Origin: Arthrobacter echini | GTDB lineage: Bacteria > Actinomycetota > Actinomycetes > Actinomycetales > Micrococcaceae | Direction: 5' to 3' | DNA length: 64,000 nucleotides | NCBI RefSeq assembly: GCF_004803505.1 | Contig: NZ_SSWH01000007.1 | Span: 124,001 to 188,000 of the forward strand | Shown here: positions 5,886 through 62,220 of the stretch, in pieces | How positions within the stretch are numbered: the stretch's first letter is position 1 | How the letters are laid out: every line of letters begins with the position of its first letter | The notes under the pieces: model-generated | The model's input: only the letters and a program-made list of their open reading frames with translations | What the model was told of the DNA's origin: nothing | Database searches by the model: none | Program-made: the position numbers and the translations under genes

Positions 5886-7604
5886 TCACCCGGAGGGCGC
5901 CGGTTCCGGTTCCACGTCGGCAAGATCGATCCTGTTGAAGACCTCGTGCATGACGGGACTCACGGGGTAGCTCAGAACGCGTGGACTCATCGCCAGAGCG
6001 GACACGGGCAGGGCCAGCGGTACGGCGGGAAGCCGGTCGGAGATCTGCGCGCTGATGTCGGCATAGGCATCCCGGCGCTCCTGGCCGGCAGGAAGACCGC
6101 GCGCGCGGGTGATCTTGCTCACCAGCTGTGGGTCGTCGTAGGCGAACTCGTCGCTGTAGGTGCCGAAGAGATCGCCGGTGAAGTTGTCCGGATCCTGATA
6201 GGTGCCACTCCAGCCCAGGAGGTGGAACGCCCGGTCGCCCGGCTGCTGGACGGCGTCGACGTACCCCTCGCCCCAGTCGATCGGCACCGGCCGGATGTTG
6301 AAGCCCGCCGCCACGAGCTGCCTGCTCAGCTCGGCGTATGCCTTCTCGGGCGAGGGCAGGTAGGGCCGGGAAACGGAGCGCGGGTAGTAGAAGGGAAGCT
6401 CCCTGCCGTCGTAACCGGCGTCGTCGAGCAGGTCCCTGGCGAGCTCGGGATCATAGGAGTAGTCGGTGACGGTCTCAGTGCTGATACCGAGCTTCTCGGG
6501 AAGGAACTGCGCGGTGCTCCTCGTCCCGTCGAGGAACCGGCCCTCGATGAGCGCCGGCTTGTCGATCGCGTGCGCCACGGCCTGGCGGAAGAGCGGGTCG
6601 TCCACACCGGGGAAGTCCTGGTTCATCCCGAGATACAGCACCGAGTAAGGATCCCGCTGGAGGAACTGGAAGCCGTTGCGGGCCAGGTCCACGGCGCTGT
6701 CGACGGAGATGAAGTCGTAGCCATCGATGCGCCCGGAGGTGAGGGCACGTGCGCGTGAGTTTGCATCGGGGATGGTGGTGAAGACCACGCGGTCCACCTC
6801 GCCGCGCTCGCCCCAGTAACCGTCGAAGGAGTCGAGTCGCACCTCACCGGGTTGCCAGGACACGAGTTCGAACGGTCCGGTGCCCACCGGCGCTGTGGCG
6901 AATCCCGAGGTGGGAACGCCGCTCCTGCTCGGGTTCAGCTCCCCCGTCCGGTTCGCGGTGAAGGCGGCGGGGGAGCCCATGGCGAAGCCAGGGGCAGCCA
7001 GCGCAGGGATCAACGAGGTCGTTCGGCGGGCGAGCTGGAGGGTGAGCGTGTACTGCGATGTCGCCGTGCACCCCTCGTAGAGGCTCAGCTCGGGCTGGTC
7101 CGAGAATGCCCTGAAGACTCTCTCGAAGGCCAGCAGCGGTCCATCCTGCCGGGCAGCAGGGGGCAGGGTGTACCAGCGATCGAAGTTCGCGCAGACGGCA
7201 GCTGCATCGAAGGGTTCTCCGTCCTGGAAGAGAACGTCCTCCCGGAGTGTGAACTCGTACGTCCGACCGCTGTCGCGCTCTTCCCATGACTCGGCGAGGA
7301 GGGGCGTGGGCTCGGAGGTGAGCGGGTCGACGCCGACCAGGCCCTCCATCAGCTGGCGTGTCACGCGGTACGACTCGGTGTCGTTCGCGAGCGCGGGATC
7401 GAGGGTGAACGGATCAGCGGCCGCACCGAACGTGAAGGTTCCCGGATCGCCTGCGGCCGAGCTGCTGGCGACCGGCTGCGGCGAGACCTCCGCCGCGGTG
7501 CACGACACGAGGGCGAGGGAGGCAACCAGCGCGGCTCCGGTCAGGACCCGGCCCGGGGAACGCCCCGCACGGTGCCCGGGACAGCGCGCGGCAGCAGTGT
7601 TCAC
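5886..7604 (-). CDS. ABC transporter substrate-binding lipoprotein, family 5 (DppA/OppA type)
   Basis: Extracytoplasmic solute receptor of 572 aa from the peptide/nickel/opine-binding family. The GTG at 7604 gives a short basic N-terminus, a hydrophobic segment and the lipobox LVSC, so the protein is a lipid-anchored receptor. The SBP_bac_5 domain follows: FGAAADPFTLDPALANDTES, LLAESWEERDSGRTYEFTLR and LGMNQDFPGVDDPLFRQAVA are typical strings. An upstream extension in the same frame to 7739 would place the signal peptide internally and is rejected. No permease or ATPase genes adjoin it, so it is an orphan receptor or uses a transporter encoded elsewhere. The ligand is not evident; di- or oligopeptides are the usual cargo. 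Confidence 0.88.
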   Translation of the reverse strand: MNTAAARCPGHRAGRSPGRVLTGAALVASLALVSCTAAEVSPQPVASSSAAGDPGTFTFGAAADPFTLDPALANDTESYRVTRQLMEGLVGVDPLTSEPTPLLAESWEERDSGRTYEFTLREDVLFQDGEPFDAAAVCANFDRWYTLPPAARQDGPLLAFERVFRAFSDQPELSLYEGCTATSQYTLTLQLARRTTSLIPALAAPGFAMGSPAAFTANRTGELNPSRSGVPTSGFATAPVGTGPFELVSWQPGEVRLDSFDGYWGERGEVDRVVFTTIPDANSRARALTSGRIDGYDFISVDSAVDLARNGFQFLQRDPYSVLYLGMNQDFPGVDDPLFRQAVAHAIDKPALIEGRFLDGTRSTAQFLPEKLGISTETVTDYSYDPELARDLLDDAGYDGRELPFYYPRSVSRPYLPSPEKAYAELSRQLVAAGFNIRPVPIDWGEGYVDAVQQPGDRAFHLLGWSGTYQDPDNFTGDLFGTYSDEFAYDDPQLVSKITRARGLPAGQERRDAYADISAQISDRLPAVPLALPVSALAMSPRVLSYPVSPVMHEVFNRIDLADVEPEPAPSG

Positions 7605-7696
7605 GGGCGGATTCTCCGATGGGCATGGTGGCTGAAGACCCCAGTGTAGGTGATGGCTCTGATCATTCAGCCCTGCGACGCAGGGGTCCGTCCGAC

Positions 7697-7733
7697 GACG
7701 AACCCCCTCTTCGCGCGGATGAGGGGGTTCGTC
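7697..7733. terminator. Perfect 13-bp hairpin downstream of the fasciclin gene
   Basis: GACGAACCCCCTC and GAGGGGGTTCGTC are exact inverted copies separated by an 11-nt loop. The hairpin lies 3' of the fasciclin gene and 5' of the substrate-binding-protein gene (both minus strand). There is no run of T after the stem, so it would be an actinobacterial tail-less terminator or an mRNA-stabilising hairpin. Confidence 0.55.
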
Positions 7734-7781
7734 ATACATCCCTGGACCGCGTTAGAGGTTCGGACCAGGGAAACCGGTGGA

Positions 7782-8516
7782 CTAGCTCGTGGGGGGCATC
7801 AGAACCGCGTCGATGAGGTAGACGACGGCATTGGAGGTCTGGACGCCTCCGCAGACGACACTGGCATCATTGACCATGAGCTCGTCCCCGGAACCGCTGA
7901 CCTCGACATCCTCGCCCTGGAGTGTGGTCTGGGTGGTTCCCTCTATGTCGGCGGGCTGGATCATGCCCTCGACGACGTGGTACGTCAGGATGTTGTTCAG
8001 GCCCTCGGTGTCGGTCTCCAGTTCCGTGACGGTCTCTTCCGGCAGTGCCTCGAAGGCCGAGTCGACCGGAGCGAAGACCGTGAACTCGCCGCTGTTGAGG
8101 GTGTCGACGAGATCGACATCGGGATTGATGCCACCGGAGATGGCGGCCGTGAGCTGGCTGAGGATCGGATTGTTGGACGCTGCATCGGCGACGGGAGCGA
8201 GTGCCATCCCGTCAACGGAGGCATCACCTTCCGGATTCTCGGCTGCATAGTCATCGCAGCCCGGGCCCACGAGGTTCGCTGCGGGATCCATCATGGCGTC
8301 GGCGGAGGCCGACGGCTCCATGCCGGCCATCCCGGTCTCCGTTGGCATGCTGCTCTCGGGAGCCATGGAGGTCTCCGGAGCCATGCTGGTCTCGCTGGCC
8401 ATGCTGGTCTCGGCGGCATCGGATGCCGTGTCGTCCCCACCGCAGCCTGCAAGGCCGAGCATCGAGATTGCGGCGATTCCGAGGATCGAGAGATTCCTGC
8501 GCTGTGTGGTTGCCAT
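7782..8516 (-). CDS. Fasciclin (FAS1) domain lipoprotein, MPB70/MPT83-like
   Basis: Secreted surface protein of 244 aa. A signal peptide ends in the lipobox LAGC, followed by GGDD and a ~35-residue low-complexity linker built from a repeated S-M-A-x-E-T/S-S motif ([24 protein letters not shown]). The single C-terminal FAS1 domain contains the H1 box [15 protein letters not shown] and the H2 box LTYHVVEG, and ends with [15 protein letters not shown]1 domains mediate adhesion or ligand binding at cell surfaces. Of three close Met codons, ATG 8516 is favoured because GGAGG lies 8 nt upstream. Function in this organism is unknown. Confidence 0.9.
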
Positions 8517-8699
8517 GTTCATTTCCTCCATAGATGCGACCCGGCGGCTGCCGGCGGCCCGTGACGTGCGGTGGAACACATCGTGACGATGTCTCACAGC
8601 TCATTCGGGTGATCGACGCCGGCGGATGGGTTCAGGAACGCAGAAAGAGAAAAATCGTCGGAGCACGTGGTGCCGACGAGGAACAGGTAGTCACTACTC

Positions 8700-8828
8700 A
8701 TGCAGGAGGCATCGTCGCGGATCTACTGTGCGTTCATGACGTACTCGGAGCACAAATGCCAATGCTGTGGCGAGGAATCGGACGCCGTGTTCTGCGAGGA
8801 GTGCCGGGCGGACCACGCGGACTGCTGA
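8700..8828 (+). CDS. Small cysteine-rich (zinc-ribbon-like) protein
   Basis: A 42-codon frame not otherwise explained, encoding KCQCCGEESDAVFCEECRADHADC at its C-terminus (in parts: KCQCCGEESD, AVFCEECRADHADC). The CxCC-x10-CxxC-x6-C spacing resembles a minimal treble-clef or zinc-ribbon knuckle. An alternative start is the ATG at 8736 (30 aa). Neither start has a good ribosome site, so the reading frame is chosen by its Cys pattern rather than initiation signals. It stands between the fasciclin gene (divergent) and the end of the sugar-permease gene. Could be a chance frame. Confidence 0.35.
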   Translation: MQEASSRIYCAFMTYSEHKCQCCGEESDAVFCEECRADHADC

Positions 8829-8918
8829 CCCGGGAGCGGGGAAGCGGACGGGAGCGACGCCGGTGATCGTGATCCGGCTCGAGCGGACGCGCCGCCGCAC
8901 TCGGCAGCAGCGGGTGCA

Positions 8919-9827
8919 CTACTTGACGGATCCAGCGGTGAGTCCTCCGATGAGTCTCTTCTCGATGAGGGCGAACAGGATGATCACCGGGACGATCGCG
9001 ACGATCGACAGCCCGAAGACGTACTGCCAGCTCGTCGCGTACTGGCCGATGAACTTGGTGAGGGCGACGGAGAGCGGCTGGTTCTCCGCGGTCGACATGA
9101 TGACCAGGCTGGCGGCGAATTCATTCCACGAGGCCACGAAGGTGAAGATGATGGCGGTGACGATGCCCGGCCAGACGAGCGGCAGATTGATCCGGAAGAG
9201 CACGCTCAGTCGGCTCGCCCCGTCGAGCTGGGCTGCCTCGTCGACTTCCTTCGGGATCCCGGCGAAGAAACTGTGCATGATCCACAGCGCGAAGGACAGG
9301 TTGAAGGCCGCATTGATCAGGATCATGGCGAGCCAGGTGTCGTTGAGGTCGAGCACGAGCATCTGCCGGAAGAGCCCTGCCGTGAGAACGGCCGGCTGGA
9401 GCATCTGCGTCACGATGACGAGGAACAGGAACGCCCACTTGCCGGGGAAACTGAAGCGAGCAGTGTAGTAGGCCGCGGGTGTGGCGACGAGCAGGACGAG
9501 CAGGGTCGCGAACACCGCGATGATCACCGTGGAGATGAAGTTGTACGGCAGCGGGGTCTCGGGGGTCGACCACATGGTGAGGTAATTGCCGACCTGCAGT
9601 CCGTCCTGCGGGAGGTAGCGGGGAGGCACGGCGAGGATCTCCGATCGGGTCTTCAGCGACCCGACGAGCATGATGAGGTACGGGACGAGGAAGACGACGA
9701 TGATCAGTATCCCCACGACGACGCGCGTCACCATCCACTTCCGGGTGACGCCGTCGGCGCCGTACTTCCGGGCGCGGCTGGTCGAGGGTGCCGACGCAGG
9801 AACCTCCGGTGGTGCTGCAATGGCCAT
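8919..9827 (-). CDS. Carbohydrate ABC transporter permease (MalG/UgpE type)
   Basis: Inner-membrane subunit of 302 aa with six predicted TM helices (first at ~32-55). The cytoplasmic EAA loop reads EVDEAAQLDGASRLSVLFRI, the docking site for the ATPase, and LPLVWPGIVTA follows. The C-terminal EKRLIGGLTAGSVK is the classic ending of MalG-like permeases. It starts one base after the stop of the first permease, indicating translational coupling. With the binding protein and the other permease it forms a sugar importer; the ATPase must be supplied from elsewhere, as with shared MsiK/MsmK ATPases of actinobacteria. Confidence 0.93.
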   Translation of the reverse strand: MAIAAPPEVPASAPSTSRARKYGADGVTRKWMVTRVVVGILIIVVFLVPYLIMLVGSLKTRSEILAVPPRYLPQDGLQVGNYLTMWSTPETPLPYNFISTVIIAVFATLLVLLVATPAAYYTARFSFPGKWAFLFLVIVTQMLQPAVLTAGLFRQMLVLDLNDTWLAMILINAAFNLSFALWIMHSFFAGIPKEVDEAAQLDGASRLSVLFRINLPLVWPGIVTAIIFTFVASWNEFAASLVIMSTAENQPLSVALTKFIGQYATSWQYVFGLSIVAIVPVIILFALIEKRLIGGLTAGSVK

Positions 9828-9828
9828 C

Positions 9829-10755
9829 TCAGTCCTCTTTCATCGGTTTGACGATCTTCACGTACGCCGCGACTATGACGATCACGATGGCGAAGTTGAG
9901 CACACTCAGTGCGCTTGCGAGGTCCAGACGCCGGTCGAACTGGAGGACCTTGAAGATGTAGGTCATCAGGGTGTCGGCGTCGTAGCCGGGGATCGACCCG
10001 GTCATGATGCGCAGGATCGGCAGATTGTTGAAGACATTGATGACATTGATGAGTACCGCCACCGCAAGCGCACTGCGCAGTTGCGGCAGGATCACCAGGA
10101 AGTACGTGCGCACCCTGCCTGCGCCGTCCATCTTCGCCGCTTCGAGGATATCCGCCGGGACCGCCTGCAGACCCGCGAGCAGCGTGTAGGTGGTGAAGGG
10201 GATGGAGACGAAGATGCCGACGACGATCGCCGCGCCCAGGGCCGCCGTGACGTTCTTCGTGAAGCCGTAGGGGCTGTCGAGTATCCCGATGTCGACGAGG
10301 AAGGTGTTCATGATGCCGTAGTCACGGTCCAGCCCGTAGTAGAACACCGTGGTCGTCATGACCACACTCGCGGCCCAGGGGACCACGACCGCCATCCTCA
10401 CCAGCGTCCGGCCGGGAAAGGGCTTGTTGAGGAAACTGGCGAGCGCGAGCGAGAGGATGACGGTGAGGGTCACGACCACCGTGACCCATACGACCGTGTT
10501 CAGCAGGATCCGGGGGAGGTTGGGATCGGCAAGTACCCGGCTGAAGTTCGCGAACCCCACGCCTTCGATGTTCGTTCCCGCCTGGCTGATCCGCCGGGTG
10601 GAGTTGTAGATCATGTAGGCGGCAGGGAACACGACGACGCCGAAGATCAGGATCAGTACCGGCCCGATCCACGGAAGCGCTGCGACGAAGCTCTCCCGGT
10701 TCCGGACACGCGCCCTCCGGATACGCGTGATGGGGGGCTGCTCGAAGGTACTCAT
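9829..10755 (-). CDS. Carbohydrate ABC transporter permease (MalF/UgpA type)
   Basis: The 308-aa partner permease. It has an N-terminal TM helix (WIGPVLILIFGVVVFPAAYM), a periplasmic stretch, then the core helices and an EAA loop DILEAAKMDGAGRVRTYFLV. ATG 10755 (MSTFEQ) is chosen because residues upstream of it look non-coding and a purine-rich GGAAAGAACGG precedes it. It lies between the binding-protein gene (70 nt upstream) and the MalG-type gene in one minus-strand operon. Cargo probably an oligosaccharide or polyol; the sequence alone does not specify it. Confidence 0.92.
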   Translation of the reverse strand: MSTFEQPPITRIRRARVRNRESFVAALPWIGPVLILIFGVVVFPAAYMIYNSTRRISQAGTNIEGVGFANFSRVLADPNLPRILLNTVVWVTVVVTLTVILSLALASFLNKPFPGRTLVRMAVVVPWAASVVMTTTVFYYGLDRDYGIMNTFLVDIGILDSPYGFTKNVTAALGAAIVVGIFVSIPFTTYTLLAGLQAVPADILEAAKMDGAGRVRTYFLVILPQLRSALAVAVLINVINVFNNLPILRIMTGSIPGYDADTLMTYIFKVLQFDRRLDLASALSVLNFAIVIVIVAAYVKIVKPMKED

Positions 10756-10826
10756 GGGTACTGACCGTTCTTTCCGGGCGGGAGGGGAACCGACGAGGAC
10801 GAGCCGGTGCCCCCGGCTCCGATGCC

Positions 10827-12065
10827 TCAGCTCGCGGCGTCGGCCCTCGCCTGGATCTGCTCGAGGACGGAAGCGGGGTCCTGTGTCTCCAGCAGGCCCA
10901 TCAGTGACTTGAAGGCACCGTCGGTTGCGTTCCACGCCGGGTTGGACGTCGGGTAGAACTCCGCGGCCGGCAGCATCTCGAGGAACGGCTGCAGCGTCTC
11001 GTCCGATGCCATGGCCTCGGCCCCTGATTTCGTGGTCGGGAGGAAGCCCTCGGTCTGCACCCAGTCGACATACTGGTCATCGGCGAAGAAGAAGTCCATG
11101 AAGGAGGTGATGGCTTCCTGCTTGCTCTCGTCGTTCCTGAAGGCCATGAGGCGGTCTGCCACGCCGAGGGTGGCCGGCTCCCCGGTATTCGTGGGCACAT
11201 TCGCGATCCCGTAGTTCAGGTCGGGGTTGGCCTCCTCGATCTGGCCGACCGTCTGCGGAAGGGCGTAGACCATCCCGATCCTGCCCTGCAGGAAGACGTT
11301 GAGCATCGGCGTACGCTGTGTCGCGCCGGGGTCGGGCTGCGTGAGTCCGTCCGTGATCATCTGCTTCATGAACTCGGCCGCCTCGAGGTTCTCCGGGGTG
11401 TCGACCGTGATCGTGGACTCGTCTCCGAAACCACCGCCGTTGCCGGCGAACCAGATGAGAGCCTCGCCCTGCGCTTCCTCGGAACCGAGCGGCATGCCGT
11501 AGCCGGGAGTGCCCGTCGCCGTGATCTTCTCGGCGGCGTCGTGCATTTCCTCCCACGTCGTGGGTGGGGCCTCGACGCCCGCGGCGTCGAACAGATCCTG
11601 GTTGTAGAACAGGGCGCGGGCAGAAGCCAGAAGAGGCAGTGCGTACTGGGTTCCCTCGAAGCTCTCGTTCACGGCGAAGGACTCCTGGAAGTCGTCCAGG
11701 GTGTCCGCGGATGCGACGTCCTCGGCGGGATAGAGCAGGCCTTCCGAGGCGAAGGCCGAGAATGCGCCGCCGTTGTAGATCTCCGGGGCCTCGCCCGCCT
11801 GGATCTTCGTCTGCAGCACTGATTCGAGGTTCTCCCAGGATTCGATCTGCAGATCGACCGTGACACCCTCATTGGCTGCCTCGAAATCCTCGATCACACC
11901 CTCCCACAGGGCCCTGGTGTCGTCGGAGTAGCTGGGGACCAGCATGTCGATCGTGGTGTCCCCCTCCGATCCGGCGGACGTGTCACCACCGAAACCGCAG
12001 GAGGAAACAGCAAGCGTGCCGATGGCAGCCATCGCCATCATCGTCGTCCTCGTCGTGCTTTTCAT
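10827..12065 (-). CDS. Extracellular sugar-binding lipoprotein (family 1 SBP)
   Basis: Lipid-anchored solute receptor of 412 aa heading the sugar importer operon. It has a signal peptide with lipobox VSSC (residues ~19-22), then an Asp/Ser/Gly-rich linker and an SBP_bac_1 domain (TIDMLVPSYSDDTRALWEG; FYNQDLFDAAGVEAPPTTWEE; GMPLGSEEAQGEALIWFAGN). The ATG at 12065 follows GAAGGAATCCAGCA, a good ribosome site. Close to family strings for binding proteins of disaccharides or glycerol-3-phosphate-like ligands, but the ligand cannot be assigned. The 120 bp upstream hold the operon promoter; no operator is evident. Confidence 0.92.
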   Translation of the reverse strand: MKSTTRTTMMAMAAIGTLAVSSCGFGGDTSAGSEGDTTIDMLVPSYSDDTRALWEGVIEDFEAANEGVTVDLQIESWENLESVLQTKIQAGEAPEIYNGGAFSAFASEGLLYPAEDVASADTLDDFQESFAVNESFEGTQYALPLLASARALFYNQDLFDAAGVEAPPTTWEEMHDAAEKITATGTPGYGMPLGSEEAQGEALIWFAGNGGGFGDESTITVDTPENLEAAEFMKQMITDGLTQPDPGATQRTPMLNVFLQGRIGMVYALPQTVGQIEEANPDLNYGIANVPTNTGEPATLGVADRLMAFRNDESKQEAITSFMDFFFADDQYVDWVQTEGFLPTTKSGAEAMASDETLQPFLEMLPAAEFYPTSNPAWNATDGAFKSLMGLLETQDPASVLEQIQARADAAS

Positions 12066-58181: not shown

Positions 58182-59771
58182 TCAGCGCACGGCCGGGATC
58201 CCCGTGTCGTCGATCTCGTTGAGCTCGTCCATCTCGTCGCGCTCTCCCAGGTAACGGGTGGCACCGAGGAGTGCGCCCATCTCGTCCGCCGGCAGCGGCT
58301 TGCAGAAGTAGAAGCCCTGCCCGCTGTTGCACCGCATGGCCCTGAGCTGATCCGCCTGCTGACGCGTCTCGATGCCCTCGAACACCGCCTCGAGACCGGC
58401 GGCCGTGATCAGTTGCAGGATCGCTGCGACGAACTCGAGCTGACCCGGTCTGGTGTTCAGCTCGGTGAGCAGCGAACGGTCCACTTTGACCATGCTGACC
58501 GGCAGTTCGCGCAGATAGCTGATCGAGGAGTATCCGGTCCCGAAGTCGTCGATCTCGATGCCGACGCCGAGCTGTTTGAGGCTCAGCAGTGAGTACATCT
58601 CCACCTCGCCGCGAGTGACGATCGCGGTCTCGGTGATCTCGACGACGAGGCTGCTGGCGGGAAGATCGAGTTCACGCAACAGCGCCCGCACATGATCCAC
58701 GAGGTCGAGCTGTTTGAGTTCGACGGCGGAGAGATTGACCCGGAGCTGGAAGTCGTCGTCGAGCGCCAGCTCCTTCTTCCATCGAGCGAGCTGTCGCAGG
58801 GAGGTGGACATCACCCAGCGGTCGAGATCGTGGATCACCCCGATCTCCTCCGCGAGCGGGATGAACGTGTCCGGTGGGATGAGGCCGCGCACCGGGTGCT
58901 GCCACCGGACGAGGACCTCGACTCCCAGGATCCGGTTCGTGGCGAGTTCGACGACCGGCTGATAGTGCAGCACGAGCTCGGTCGAGGCGATGGCGTCCCG
59001 CAGCTCGGCGGCCATCTGGCTGCGGAGCTGCCGTGAGTAGAGCATGACCGGCTGGAAGATCTTGATGATGTTGCGGCCCTCACGCTTGGCCGCGTACATG
59101 GCCGTGTCGGCGTCCAGCAGCAGCTCCTCAGCACTCTGGTTCGTTGTGCCGATGCGGATGCCGACGCTCGCGCGGCATTCGATATCGACCGCATCGACCC
59201 GGATCTTCTCCGCGAGCGCTTCAACGGCCCTGCGTGCCACCTGCAGGGCGATGTCCAGCGTTGCACCGGGAAGCAGGACGGCGAACTCGTCGCCGCCGAG
59301 GCGCGCCACGAGATCGCTCTCGCGCACCACCCTGTTGAGTCGGTGCGCGACCACCTGGAGCACGCGGTCGCCGGTGTCGTGACCGAAGCGATCATTGATG
59401 TTCTTGAAACTGTCCAGGTCGAGGAGCAGGAGAGCCGGGGGCAGGGCTCCCTCGGCGATCTGACCGAGGGCTTCCTCGATCCCGTCCATCAGGGCCACGC
59501 GATTGGCGAGTCCCGTGAGTGCGTCCGACATGGCCATCTTCATCATGTCGACATGGGCCTGGCGGAGCATGGCCGTGCGGCTCTCCACCCGTTTCTCGAA
59601 CTGCTCGTAGACCTGCTGGAGCTCTTCGGCGAGGAGATTCACGCCGGTGATGACGGCGTCCACCTCGTCCCTGGCGCTGGAGGGCTCGAGACGACTGCTG
59701 AGCTCTCCCTTGGAGAGCCGGACGATGCTCTCGACCAGCATCGCGAGTCGGGGGTCCTTGTCAGCGCTCAT
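58182..59771 (-). CDS. GGDEF-EAL cyclic-di-GMP protein
   Basis: 529 aa, no TM helix. N-terminal ~60 residues resemble a HAMP/helical dimeriser, followed by LEDVLTGLANR-type start of the GGDEF domain (ALTGLANRVALMDGI), the active site LVARLGGDEFAVLLPG and the metal-binding LDLDSFKNIND. The EAL domain has EVLVRWQHP (EVL in place of EAL), NLSAVELKQ, LVVEITETAI and IDDFGTGYSSISYLRELP, with all metal ligands I could check. So both synthesis and hydrolysis of c-di-GMP are possible. ATG 59771 is 7 nt after TAGGCT (leaderless). Confidence 0.95.
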   Translation of the reverse strand: MSADKDPRLAMLVESIVRLSKGELSSRLEPSSARDEVDAVITGVNLLAEELQQVYEQFEKRVESRTAMLRQAHVDMMKMAMSDALTGLANRVALMDGIEEALGQIAEGALPPALLLLDLDSFKNINDRFGHDTGDRVLQVVAHRLNRVVRESDLVARLGGDEFAVLLPGATLDIALQVARRAVEALAEKIRVDAVDIECRASVGIRIGTTNQSAEELLLDADTAMYAAKREGRNIIKIFQPVMLYSRQLRSQMAAELRDAIASTELVLHYQPVVELATNRILGVEVLVRWQHPVRGLIPPDTFIPLAEEIGVIHDLDRWVMSTSLRQLARWKKELALDDDFQLRVNLSAVELKQLDLVDHVRALLRELDLPASSLVVEITETAIVTRGEVEMYSLLSLKQLGVGIEIDDFGTGYSSISYLRELPVSMVKVDRSLLTELNTRPGQLEFVAAILQLITAAGLEAVFEGIETRQQADQLRAMRCNSGQGFYFCKPLPADEMGALLGATRYLGERDEMDELNEIDDTGIPAVR

Positions 59772-59866: not shown

Positions 59867-60928
59867 CTATCGCTGCTGAAGATCGTCGATGAGTTGCCTC
59901 GCTGTCGCTGCCCGGTCCTGGGCGCCGGACTGCAGGAAGAGGTCCTCGCCGAGCTCGAGCTGAGTGATGGCATCCGCAGTGCTGCCACTTTCGGCCAGCG
60001 CCTGTCCGAGGAGGAGGTGGGCCTGGGCAGCGGTGTGTGATGCGACGAGGTCCTTATGGTCGATCACTGAGTGCAGCAGCTCAGTCGCTGTATCGAACTG
60101 ACCCGTCAGGACAAGCCAGTGAGCGCGCGTGAGCTTGAGTTCCTCGCGGTCCCGGTCAGTGCCACCGATGATGAAGTTGGCCATTTCAGCCCGCTCGATG
60201 CACTCGAGAGTCTCAGACTCGACGACGCCTGCAGAGAGTCGAAGCGACGCCGATGCTCGGTTGAACCGGGACCAGAGATCGAGGTCGTTCATGGGAGAGA
60301 TAGTTTTCGCAGCTAGCCGATGGTAGTAGACGCCCTCGTCAATCTGCTTCAGTAGGAACGCAACATTTCCCATGGCCCAGTAAGACTGACCTGCATAGGG
60401 GCTCTCAGGGTGGGACACCAATATCGCAGCAAGACTTTGGCTCTCCTGCCAGGCAGCCTCCCTTTGATCGCTATCGGCCAGAGCGGCAATGAGTGCATTT
60501 AGCGCCTCTACCAGTATATTTGGTTGCCCTATCTCACTCGACGCGATCTCGACGGCGTGTCGGCCGGCGGCGATCGCGGGTGCCAAGTCACCACTACCTT
60601 GCAGAGCGAAGGAAATCAAACTTGAGACCCTCGCGCTGAGTGCTTTCGAGCGCTGTGTCAGAGGATGGTCGGCGAGCCGCTCTGCTATCGCCGCTGATTC
60701 CCTCATCATTCCCTGCTTCCTCGCGCACTCGGATACGAGGAAAGTGGCGTTCCACCACGACAGATCGTCTCCATCGTGCTGCGCGGATGATGCGAGTTGT
60801 CTTGCAACATTTTTGGCGCCCGCGTAGTCGCGACGGTTCCATGCGTCGCGGGCCTGCAGTTCGAGCAGCAGCCGTGCACCGACCGCTTCGTCGTAGGCCA
60901 TGACCCTCTTCAACTCTCCATCTGACAT
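59867..60928 (-). CDS. All-helical TPR-like protein, candidate peptide receptor
   Basis: 353 aa from ATG 60928, with no TM helix or signal peptide. Multiple ~34-40-residue helical hairpins, e.g. ARDAWNRRDYAGAKNVARQL, GQSYWAMGNVAFLLKQIDEGVYYHRLA, AHWLVLTGQFDTATELLHSVI and AHLLLGQALAESGSTADAITQLELGEDLFLQ, the last a clear TPR. Length and fold resemble Rap or the C-terminal part of RRNPP receptors, which bind short peptides. No helix-turn-helix is convincing, though the frame stays open for 55 more codons upstream (to 61093) where a weak AT-rich extension overlaps the promoter. GAGGG stands 10 nt before ATG 60928. Lower GC and more AT-ending codons than its neighbours, hinting at transfer. Divergent from a secreted peptide gene. 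Confidence 0.75.
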   Translation of the reverse strand: MSDGELKRVMAYDEAVGARLLLELQARDAWNRRDYAGAKNVARQLASSAQHDGDDLSWWNATFLVSECARKQGMMRESAAIAERLADHPLTQRSKALSARVSSLISFALQGSGDLAPAIAAGRHAVEIASSEIGQPNILVEALNALIAALADSDQREAAWQESQSLAAILVSHPESPYAGQSYWAMGNVAFLLKQIDEGVYYHRLAAKTISPMNDLDLWSRFNRASASLRLSAGVVESETLECIERAEMANFIIGGTDRDREELKLTRAHWLVLTGQFDTATELLHSVIDHKDLVASHTAAQAHLLLGQALAESGSTADAITQLELGEDLFLQSGAQDRAATARQLIDDLQQR

Positions 60929-61010
60929 AAGGCTGTATCCCTCATTATTAGGGCTCTTCTTTGGTAGAGCGACCCAAGCTGGGGATTTATGAAGAATCTG
61001 TTCAAGGTTG

Positions 61011-61039
61011 TTACAAAAGTGACTGGTGTGGCTTACGAT
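61011..61039 (+). promoter_or_regulatory. Promoter of the secreted peptide gene
   Basis: TTACAA, a 17-bp spacer and TACGAT. The -35 hexamer lies in the small palindrome TTGT-T-ACAA (61008-61016), which is also positioned to serve the divergent gene. It leaves a ~65-nt 5' leader before ATG 61111. Confidence 0.65.
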
Positions 61040-61110
61040 GAAAAGCGAGCCGCCCGTGGTACTACGCGCGATGCTCGCAACCACTGAAATCACTACATAA
61101 GGATGTCTTC

Positions 61111-61251
61111 ATGAAGCGTTTTACCTCAGCCCTCGTTCTCGCCACCATGCTCGTCACCGGTTCTGCCGCAGTCGCAAATGCTGCTCCTGCGAAGGCCGGT
61201 TCCGACGTGCCGGTGTCATCCGTAGACCGTGTAAACAACTGGCCCTTCTAG
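61111..61251 (+). CDS. Small secreted peptide (candidate pheromone precursor)
   Basis: 46 aa, too short for most gene callers. Basic start MKRF, hydrophobic core TSALVLATMLVTGSAAV and a signal-peptidase site ANA before APAKAG, leaving ~22 residues with C-terminus VDRVNNWPF. AAGGATG precedes the ATG; a consensus-like promoter and a strong hairpin after the stop make it a complete transcription unit. Divergent from the TPR-like gene. The aromatic/basic C-terminus is of the type released by further proteolysis in Phr- or SHP-like signals. No homologue is known to me. Confidence 0.72.
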   Translation: MKRFTSALVLATMLVTGSAAVANAAPAKAGSDVPVSSVDRVNNWPF

Positions 61252-61316
61252 GTCCCTATCGGCCGACCGGCGCCTTTCGTTAGGTACCGGGCCACATCGG
61301 TAGGCTGAGCAGACAA

Positions 61317-61365
61317 ATACCGCGGGCGCCCTCCACTGGGGAGGGAGCGTCCGCGGTATCTGTTT
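61317..61365. terminator. Terminator after the secreted peptide gene
   Basis: ATACCGCGGGCG-CCCTCC pairs with GGAGGGAGCGTCCGCGGTAT with a small bulge and one G-U, loop ~6 nt, followed by CTGTTT. About 65 bp after the peptide stop; the region between it and the FAH gene has no further gene. Confidence 0.8.
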
Positions 61366-61434
61366 AACCACGTATGACGAATCTTTACGGGCTACGCGAT
61401 GCCGGGGGAGTGCAGAGGTCAGCACGCCGGGCAC

Positions 61435-61440
61435 TAGGCT
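61435..61440 (+). promoter_or_regulatory. -10 box of the FAH-family gene (leaderless)
   Basis: TAGGCT, 6 nt before ATG 61447. Confidence 0.55.
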
Positions 61441-61446
61441 GGTTCA

Positions 61447-62220
61447 ATGCGAATCGCACGCTTTGTCGTCCAGGATGACCCAATGTTCGGAGTGGTCGAG
61501 GGTGCCACCGGAAGTGAGGAGATCGCCGTCATCCAGGGCGATCCCTTCTACAACGGTATCGAGCCCACCGGTGCGCGCCACGCGCTCGAGGATGTGCGGC
61601 TGCTCGCCCCGGTGATCCCGCGCAGCAAGGTAGTGGGGGTCGGGCGCAACTACGCCGACCACATCCAGGAGATGAACAGCGAGACCCCGGCAGCTCCACT
61701 GCTGTTCCTCAAGCCCAACACCTCGGTGATCGGCCCGGGGGACCCCATCATGCTCCCCTCCTTCTCGGACCAGATCTCGTACGAGGCCGAGCTCGCCATC
61801 GTGATCGGGCGCATCTGCAAGGACGTGCCGCTGGAGCGCGTGGACGACGTCGTCTTCGGCTACACCTGCGCCAACGACGTGACGGCGCGCGACGTCCAGA
61901 AGACCGACGACCAGTGGGCGCGGGCCAAGGGCTTCGACACCTCGTGCCCCATCGGTCCGTGGATCGAGACGGATCTGAATCCCGACAACCTCAGGATCAC
62001 CGGCGCGCTCGACGGCGATCTCCGCCAGGACGGCTCCACGAGCGAGATGGTCTGGGGCGCCCGCGAACTGGTGTCCTACGTCTCGCAGGCGTTCACGCTC
62101 CTTCCGGGTGATCTGATCCTCACCGGAACACCTGCCGGCGTCGGACTGATCACCGACGGCCAGCGGTACGACATCGACATCGAGGGCATCGGACGCCTGT
62201 CCAACATCGCGCGCCGCTGA
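61447..62220 (+). CDS. Fumarylacetoacetate hydrolase family protein
   Basis: 257 aa. VVGVGRNYADHIQEM is the family start of the FAH domain, FLKPNTSVIGPGDPI the substrate strand, ISYEAELAIVIGR (metal Glu pair), FGYTCANDVTARDVQ (metal Asp), and TPAGVG near the C-terminus. Such proteins are 2-hydroxyhepta-2,4-diene-1,7-dioate isomerases, acylpyruvases or oxaloacetate decarboxylases. Its constant place just before gltX in this group suggests a housekeeping acylpyruvate or oxaloacetate repair role, but this is not proven. Confidence 0.93.
   Translation: MRIARFVVQDDPMFGVVEGATGSEEIAVIQGDPFYNGIEPTGARHALEDVRLLAPVIPRSKVVGVGRNYADHIQEMNSETPAAPLLFLKPNTSVIGPGDPIMLPSFSDQISYEAELAIVIGRICKDVPLERVDDVVFGYTCANDVTARDVQKTDDQWARAKGFDTSCPIGPWIETDLNPDNLRITGALDGDLRQDGSTSEMVWGARELVSYVSQAFTLLPGDLILTGTPAGVGLITDGQRYDIDIEGIGRLSNIARR

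Follow-up and report, generated by a model that had tools for sequence, protein, structure and literature searches.

The window (the whole 64,000-nucleotide stretch of Arthrobacter echini DNA that was analysed) harbors a short gene for a secreted peptide that lies head to head with the gene of a TPR protein. The earlier note, made from the sequence, had described a 46-codon gene with a signal peptide in this arrangement. Both the ORF and its conserved pairing are found, and the observation of paired peptide and TPR genes is confirmed and extended here. The main features are as follows (window positions, strand, feature, basis):

61008-61041, plus: conserved promoter block including TTACAA-17-TACGAT (conservation and sequence; the consensus scan did not call it)
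61099-61103, plus: ribosome binding site AAGGA of the propeptide (sequence; an AAGGA-like site also occurs in relatives)
61111-61251, plus: 46-codon gene for a candidate pheromone propeptide (ORF, conserved frame, pairing with the receptor in relatives)
61111-61182, plus: predicted Sec signal peptide, residues 1-24, MKRF...AVANA (inspection and invariant residues)
61228-61248, plus: predicted mature pheromone core RVNNWPF, ends approximate (WP core in tandem in relatives)
61306-61366 (about), plus: strong terminator-like hairpin (fold of 61252-61380, z -4.5)
59867-60901, minus: candidate TPR peptide receptor without HTH, 344 aa (homologues, structure model, fold matches, conserved W/N pairs)
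58182-59771, minus: HAMP-GGDEF-EAL protein, 529 aa, 95 bp after the receptor gene, candidate target (Pfam, linkage, conserved motifs)
5886-7739, minus: family-5 binding protein (a true SBP_bac_5), one of 7 in the genome

The 46-aa ORF reads MKRFTSALVLATMLVTGSAAVANAAPAKAGSDVPVSSVDRVNNWPF. Judged by inspection, it begins with a Sec-type signal peptide composed of a K/R start, a hydrophobic stretch and an AxA site. Among 17 distinct 46-codon homologues, K2, R3, S6, L10, A19, A20, A22, A24, A25 and P26 are invariant, as are D39, R40, W44 and P45 toward the C-terminus, where residues 42, 43 and 46 vary. The same 17 versions give diversities of 0.21/0.13/0.43 at the three codon positions and a pN/pS of 0.34. 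Judging from these substitution patterns, purifying selection acts on the peptide frame, and the frame conservation that the earlier note had proposed as a check is borne out. The strong terminator that it placed after the peptide gene is likewise recovered as the hairpin listed above.

Upstream of the peptide gene, TTACAA occurs at 61011 and, after a spacer of 17 nt, TACGAT at 61034. The proposed promoter is thus present as a sequence, and the block around it is conserved 5′ of the peptide within the window's own clade. However, the sigma-70 consensus scan for a promoter of the peptide gene found 0, and the block conservation was not seen in more distant members of the genus. In L055-L070, L072 and L074 the block occupies the same place (TGTTAC.AAAGTG.CTGG.GTGGCTTACGAT), and it reads GTTAC/GTGAC/GTGGC, spaced by nine bases. 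Such spaced repeats are perhaps the binding site of a regulator. The GC content is 0.55–0.59 in the intervals covering 60000–61499 vs. 0.63–0.70 on both flanks, in agreement with the lower GC content noted for the TPR gene.

The preferred start of the TPR protein is ATG 60901, which gives 344 aa; it is directly preceded by AAGAGGG, and the length agrees with that of database protein P0001. This start supersedes the one at 60928 (353 aa) given originally. An extension of the ORF to GTG 61093 (408 aa) is rejected as coding sequence because several close relatives align to the added stretch only across a stop codon; the stretch is the conserved promoter region. The receptor contains no HTH detectable by Pfam or by an HTH profile, and none is hidden upstream in the minus frames or according to that profile, as had been read from the sequence at the outset. 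The structure model is a TPR solenoid (pLDDT 94.9). The same conserved W...N pair is located on two successive inner helices, W175/N179 and W210/N214; both tryptophans are invariant and both asparagines 95–96% conserved across 80 receptor clusters. Rap, NprR and AimR are among the fold matches listed for the model, none of them as the best match. Two results weigh against the receptor reading: APPBP2, MalT and APC/C subunits outscore Rap among the matches listed, and the top Foldseek rows are designed TPRs and LGN. The TPR fold does not discriminate peptide receptors, and the fold shared by the model is no proof of peptide binding. PlcR, PrgX, Rgg and ComR are not among the best 50 fold matches listed, which carries no weight against them.

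Neither receptor nor peptide has an NCBIfam match that passes the cut-off. A sequence search of the PDB with the A1 profile (mostly HTH-less receptors) and with the HTH-bearing relative P0121 returned designed, repeat and HTH proteins, and the A1 profile found no RRNPPA member there. A phage or plasmid origin is rejected, the window receptor having no match in a collection of 50,697 phage records. PHROGs contains no match to it either, and P0121 has HTH matches there; the plasmid search, with P0121 as its only query, returned 8 Streptomyces records aligned over the HTH part alone.

Homologues of the TPR protein occur in 35 of the 57 relatives searched (the window's genome included) and in 221 of 395 genomes, representing 17 of 32 genera of the family. 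A profile search of the order found them in 26 of 396 genomes, four of which lie outside the family. Named relatives are nearly all Arthrobacter, and the window's own genome has a single receptor homologue, that of the window. One homologue labelled Vibrio cholerae (P0037) is on a 65,993-base contig, which is also the length of contig 17 in G025, a genome of the same genus, and is probably a mislabelled or contaminated record.

Pairing was assessed in 115 receptor ORFs drawn from part of the homologue-bearing genomes (the window, L055-L133, L138, L139, L142-L144 and 23 later loci, excluding repeated loci and loci without a receptor); these form 80 clusters at 80% identity, so the counts are not independent. 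A fixed rule was applied: a divergent ORF of 30–140 aa with a signal-peptide-like start and [GNDST]xWP located beyond roughly residue 18 and either close to the end or repeated. It is satisfied beside 98 of the 112 receptor genes with at least 450 nt of upstream sequence (three were dropped for having less), and at 2/272 other genes in the control (loci L055-L114 and the window). Because a Sec signal peptide is built into the rule, its presence in all accepted precursors is no independent evidence. By class, a peptide accompanies 68/69 HTH-less receptors, as the earlier note would have it for homologues of the TPR gene, and 30/43 receptors with an XRE HTH. The HTH-less exception is the second copy in L086; the 13 HTH-bearing ones are L092-L094, L127-L129, L131, L132, L139, L142-L144 and L169. 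The 14/112 receptors without a peptide by the rule count against the explanation favored below. At L092 a divergent ORF carries three IGDWPLGG and has no accepted signal peptide. Upstream of the receptor gene in L132, VGNWPDR repeats are broken in frame, which would fit either decay of the precursor or an error in the sequence. By this comparison of loci, the peptide-receptor pair is conserved among relatives.

The accepted precursors share a WP core, present once in 50/98 and in 2–8 copies in 48/98. The repeats include five IGNWPDPM (L115), eight VG[DN]WPH (L120), six VGNWPDA (L122), five FVGNWPDAV (L123) and five VGNWPDR (L133). WP is mostly preceded by V or I, then G/N/D, then a freer residue. 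Precursors of the window's clade have one core, at the C-terminus. A pheromone placed C-terminally or in tandem within its propeptide, a feature of known systems, is thus seen at the level of sequence. Bacillus Phr propeptides contain several, up to 8, pheromone copies in the part of PMC11343458 available, and the multi-core precursors resemble such multi-copy propeptides. These tandem cores go beyond the earlier note, whose proposal of a peptide-pheromone system with a TPR partner they support. Where receptors are duplicated in tandem, the copies carry different peptides at all five loci in which both were seen (L079, L080, L084, L085, L088): K[IVS]GNWP[DG] repeats lie beside one copy and ID[DN]WP[HN] beside the other. 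The two receptor types of these loci form separate, supported groups in the receptor tree.

The family also includes receptors with a DNA-binding domain. The HTH profile detects an HTH in 43/115 receptor ORFs, within the genus as well (L092-L094), and HTH_31/HTH_3 score above cut-off in both HTH relatives scanned with Pfam. The receptor tree shows only about two changes of the HTH label. A profile of 13 HTH relatives matches PlcR with E 1.4e-9 over the HTH and most of the TPR part (profile positions 4-223), in a list where designed repeat proteins obtain better scores. In f17, another family within the order, the divergent precursor holds two VGGSWPT at L166 and three at L167; L168 has one precursor ending in SDTWPA, and L169 has none. 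Across the phylum the HTH profile matches 15/396 genomes. Among 12 distant loci (L216-L227), a set without controls, 9 carry a short secreted ORF in divergent orientation at a distance of up to about 300 nt; WP occurs in 6 of the 9 ORFs. The XRE-TPR genes concerned, from distant lineages of the phylum, are those of L218, L219 and L221-L227, and the ORFs end, for instance, in GYPWPK, GFPWPK, GGGNWPFFDD, KWPWG or TWPHC. At L220 (genome G777) a 43-aa secreted ORF ending in IEWP precedes the XRE-TPR gene by about 190 nt and shares its strand. On the basis of these uncontrolled distant loci, the class of peptide receptors may span the phylum. A tentative extension, at somewhat below even odds, is that Actinomycetota have their own old class of XRE-TPR pheromone receptors with divergent WP-core propeptides; one branch, in Micrococcaceae, would have lost the HTH and become a Rap-like switch of a bifunctional GGDEF-EAL enzyme, giving the pheromone direct control of c-di-GMP and the exopolysaccharide matrix.

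Peptide communication through intracellular receptors is best known in Bacillus-like bacteria. Rap proteins target Spo0F, ComA or other response regulators. In contrast, the pair described here has no known action on a response regulator and is linked to a GGDEF-EAL gene; its peptide gene is divergent from the receptor gene, the peptide has a WP core and the host belongs to Actinomycetota. The window receptor is also without a counterpart of the N-terminal three-helix bundle of Rap: residues 1-327 of the model align with Rap from residue 41-43 to 372, and nothing precedes them in the 344-aa protein. The likeness to PlcR-PapR consists of the PlcR match of the HTH relatives and the adjacent secreted peptide, whereas the window receptor has no HTH, the peptide repeats reach 8 copies, and the peptides have nothing in common with PapR among the features tested. 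The AimR-AimP arbitrium pair is a phage system, unlike the chromosomal pair of the window. With the gamma-butyrolactones and similar signals of Actinobacteria, the likeness is density signalling in the same phylum. In the accessible parts of two sources, actinobacterial signals are typically enzyme-made small molecules and quorum sensing in this group is under-explored (PMC10075063, PMC4748050); here the candidate signal is a gene-encoded peptide. RRNPPA systems are placed in Firmicutes, with all but one genus in Bacilli, in the portion of PMC9765709 at hand. By sequence and model, the window protein appears to have the TPR domain of this family together with an adjacent small secreted propeptide gene, and to be without the N-terminal HTH and the Rap bundle. 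The HTH-bearing relatives may be true RRNPPA members. The literature searched, which excluded preprints and most subscription journals, contains no description of a peptide-TPR pair of this kind, and GNWPD occurs there in one influenza paper only.

The gene downstream of the receptor encodes the HAMP-GGDEF-EAL protein. A same-strand orthologue accompanies 67/69 HTH-less receptor ORFs in stretches of mostly 11 kb; L189, L193 and L194 are biased, having been fetched for their GGDEF-EAL gene. The misses are L071, whose sequence breaks off behind the DUF7793 gene, and L090, which borders the end of its contig. Two gene orders exist: in L189, L198 and L199 the GGDEF-EAL gene flanks the receptor gene on the side opposite to that in the rest. 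The FAH and GltX neighbors of the window are missing from the L097-L111 stretches, where the GGDEF-EAL gene is kept. No orthologue occurs near HTH receptors (0/14). In 56 orthologues, GGDEF is intact in 55/55 covered, E[AV]L and DDFG in 56/56, and the R and D of the I-site each in 52/55. With a threshold of E<=1e-100, the enzyme is present in 5/11 family members with a receptor and in 0/16 without one (16 of 20 listed among 174). Against a functional link, the stretches of L188, L190, L191 and L192 contain DUF7793-GGDEF-EAL and no receptor, and two of these loci are from genomes where only HTH receptors were found (G062, G071). The linkage of receptor and enzyme could be inherited synteny. The original suggestion that the TPR protein acts on another protein in the manner of Rap holds as an analogy, to which linkage adds the adjacent GGDEF-EAL protein as a candidate target.

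Other genes recur in the cluster. A DUF7793 gene (with a SpoIIAA-like match below cut-off) often adjoins the enzyme gene. DUF7793 (PF25056) stands next to GGDEF-EAL genes at L097-L111, L188-L192, L199 and others, the window's genome has one copy elsewhere (contig 38), and the domain is not named in the searched literature. A GT2 glycosyltransferase with an opposed CBM5_12 gene, whose GH18 match is below Pfam's cut-off, occurs in the cluster at 11 loci within the genus and also in four further genera. The GT2 (about 780 aa) and the opposed GH18-like/CBM5_12 gene are seen in L071, L077-L080, L083-L085, L087, L089, L091, L095, L096 and L193-L196. In the window's genome these genes lie together on contig 41, the window itself being on contig 39, and are absent from the pheromone locus, which counts against the explanation favored below. 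The flanks of L056 are rearranged relative to its close relative L055: FAH and GGDEF-EAL are matched only in part, and GltX and BCAT not at all.

With regard to import, the earlier note had suggested, as a speculative link, an orphan family-5 receptor as the pheromone importer. The binding protein gene is followed by a fasciclin-domain gene and two ABC permease genes (5886-10935, all on the minus strand; the permease genes, beyond the fasciclin gene, at 8919-10935). The genome has 7 SBP_bac_5 matches and 10 oligo_HPY matches, 8 of them over cut-off. As this protein is one of 7, with nothing singling it out and two permease genes nearby, a special role for it is not supported.

The reading favored here, with a probability of about three in four, is RRNPP-like peptide quorum sensing in Actinomycetota with a Rap-like branch that controls a c-di-GMP enzyme. 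Export, trimming, import and TPR binding make up the RRNPP scheme in what is available of PMC4873490 and PMC9765709, and processing, import, binding, target and c-di-GMP effect and output are proposed here by analogy and from gene content. The 46-aa propeptide would be exported by Sec and shortened extracellularly to a small peptide from its C-terminus, around RVNNWPF, which would re-enter through an oligopeptide permease and bind in the receptor groove, at the site of W175/N179 and W210/N214. Since the receptor is without a DNA-binding domain, it would act, by analogy with Rap, on another protein; gene linkage points to the downstream-encoded HAMP-GGDEF-EAL protein as the most likely one, reached through a Rap-like contact. 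Cell density would thereby set c-di-GMP and, in turn, exopolysaccharide from the GT2 and GH18-like genes clustered in several relatives.

Other explanations accept the pair and assign it a different role. The HTH-less receptor could titrate or modulate a transcription factor, such as an XRE regulator acting at the promoter block, with GGDEF-EAL as a passenger. Three observations would fit this: in the window's clade the block upstream of the peptide is conserved and has spaced direct repeats, the receptor family includes HTH-bearing members (also in the genus), and some GGDEF-EAL orthologues have no receptor nearby. It is nevertheless unlikely given the 67/69 same-strand linkage, kept in two gene orders and in genera with differing flanks, and the single receptor homologue in the window's genome. 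That the small protein is instead a secreted structural or matrix-binding peptide with WP-rich repeats, the TPR protein controlling its export or a matrix operon, is improbable. GT2 and GH18-like/CBM5_12 genes do cluster with the pair in several relatives, and binding peptides can have repeats too; however, the same peptides pair with HTH receptors at loci without these genes, the window's clade has a single short C-terminal core, and the core stays constant while the repeat number varies.

The peptide might also be a cognate inhibitor or antagonist within the producer or acting on itself (self-sensing, a timer), with no population signal. Sequence data cannot separate a self-signal from a population signal, and a pathway of the Rap-Phr type is compatible with both; this version, against which none of the present results speaks, is given very little credence. 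A chance ORF that merely happens to lie next to an unrelated TPR gene is close to negligible in probability: short ORFs are common here and the consensus promoter scan found nothing, but the pairing of 98/112 vs. 2/272, the pN/pS value and the tandem repeats speak against it.

If the quorum-sensing reading is true, Arthrobacter-like soil bacteria would become open to methods developed in Bacillus (synthetic peptides, specificity swaps and signal-blind mutants). Because the core is repeated in many precursors, their mature peptides can be predicted and put to the test immediately. Since the HTH label changes about twice on the tree, loss or gain of the DNA-binding domain can be studied as a parallel to Rap. 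The GGDEF-EAL link, if functional, would provide a short path from a peptide pheromone to c-di-GMP.
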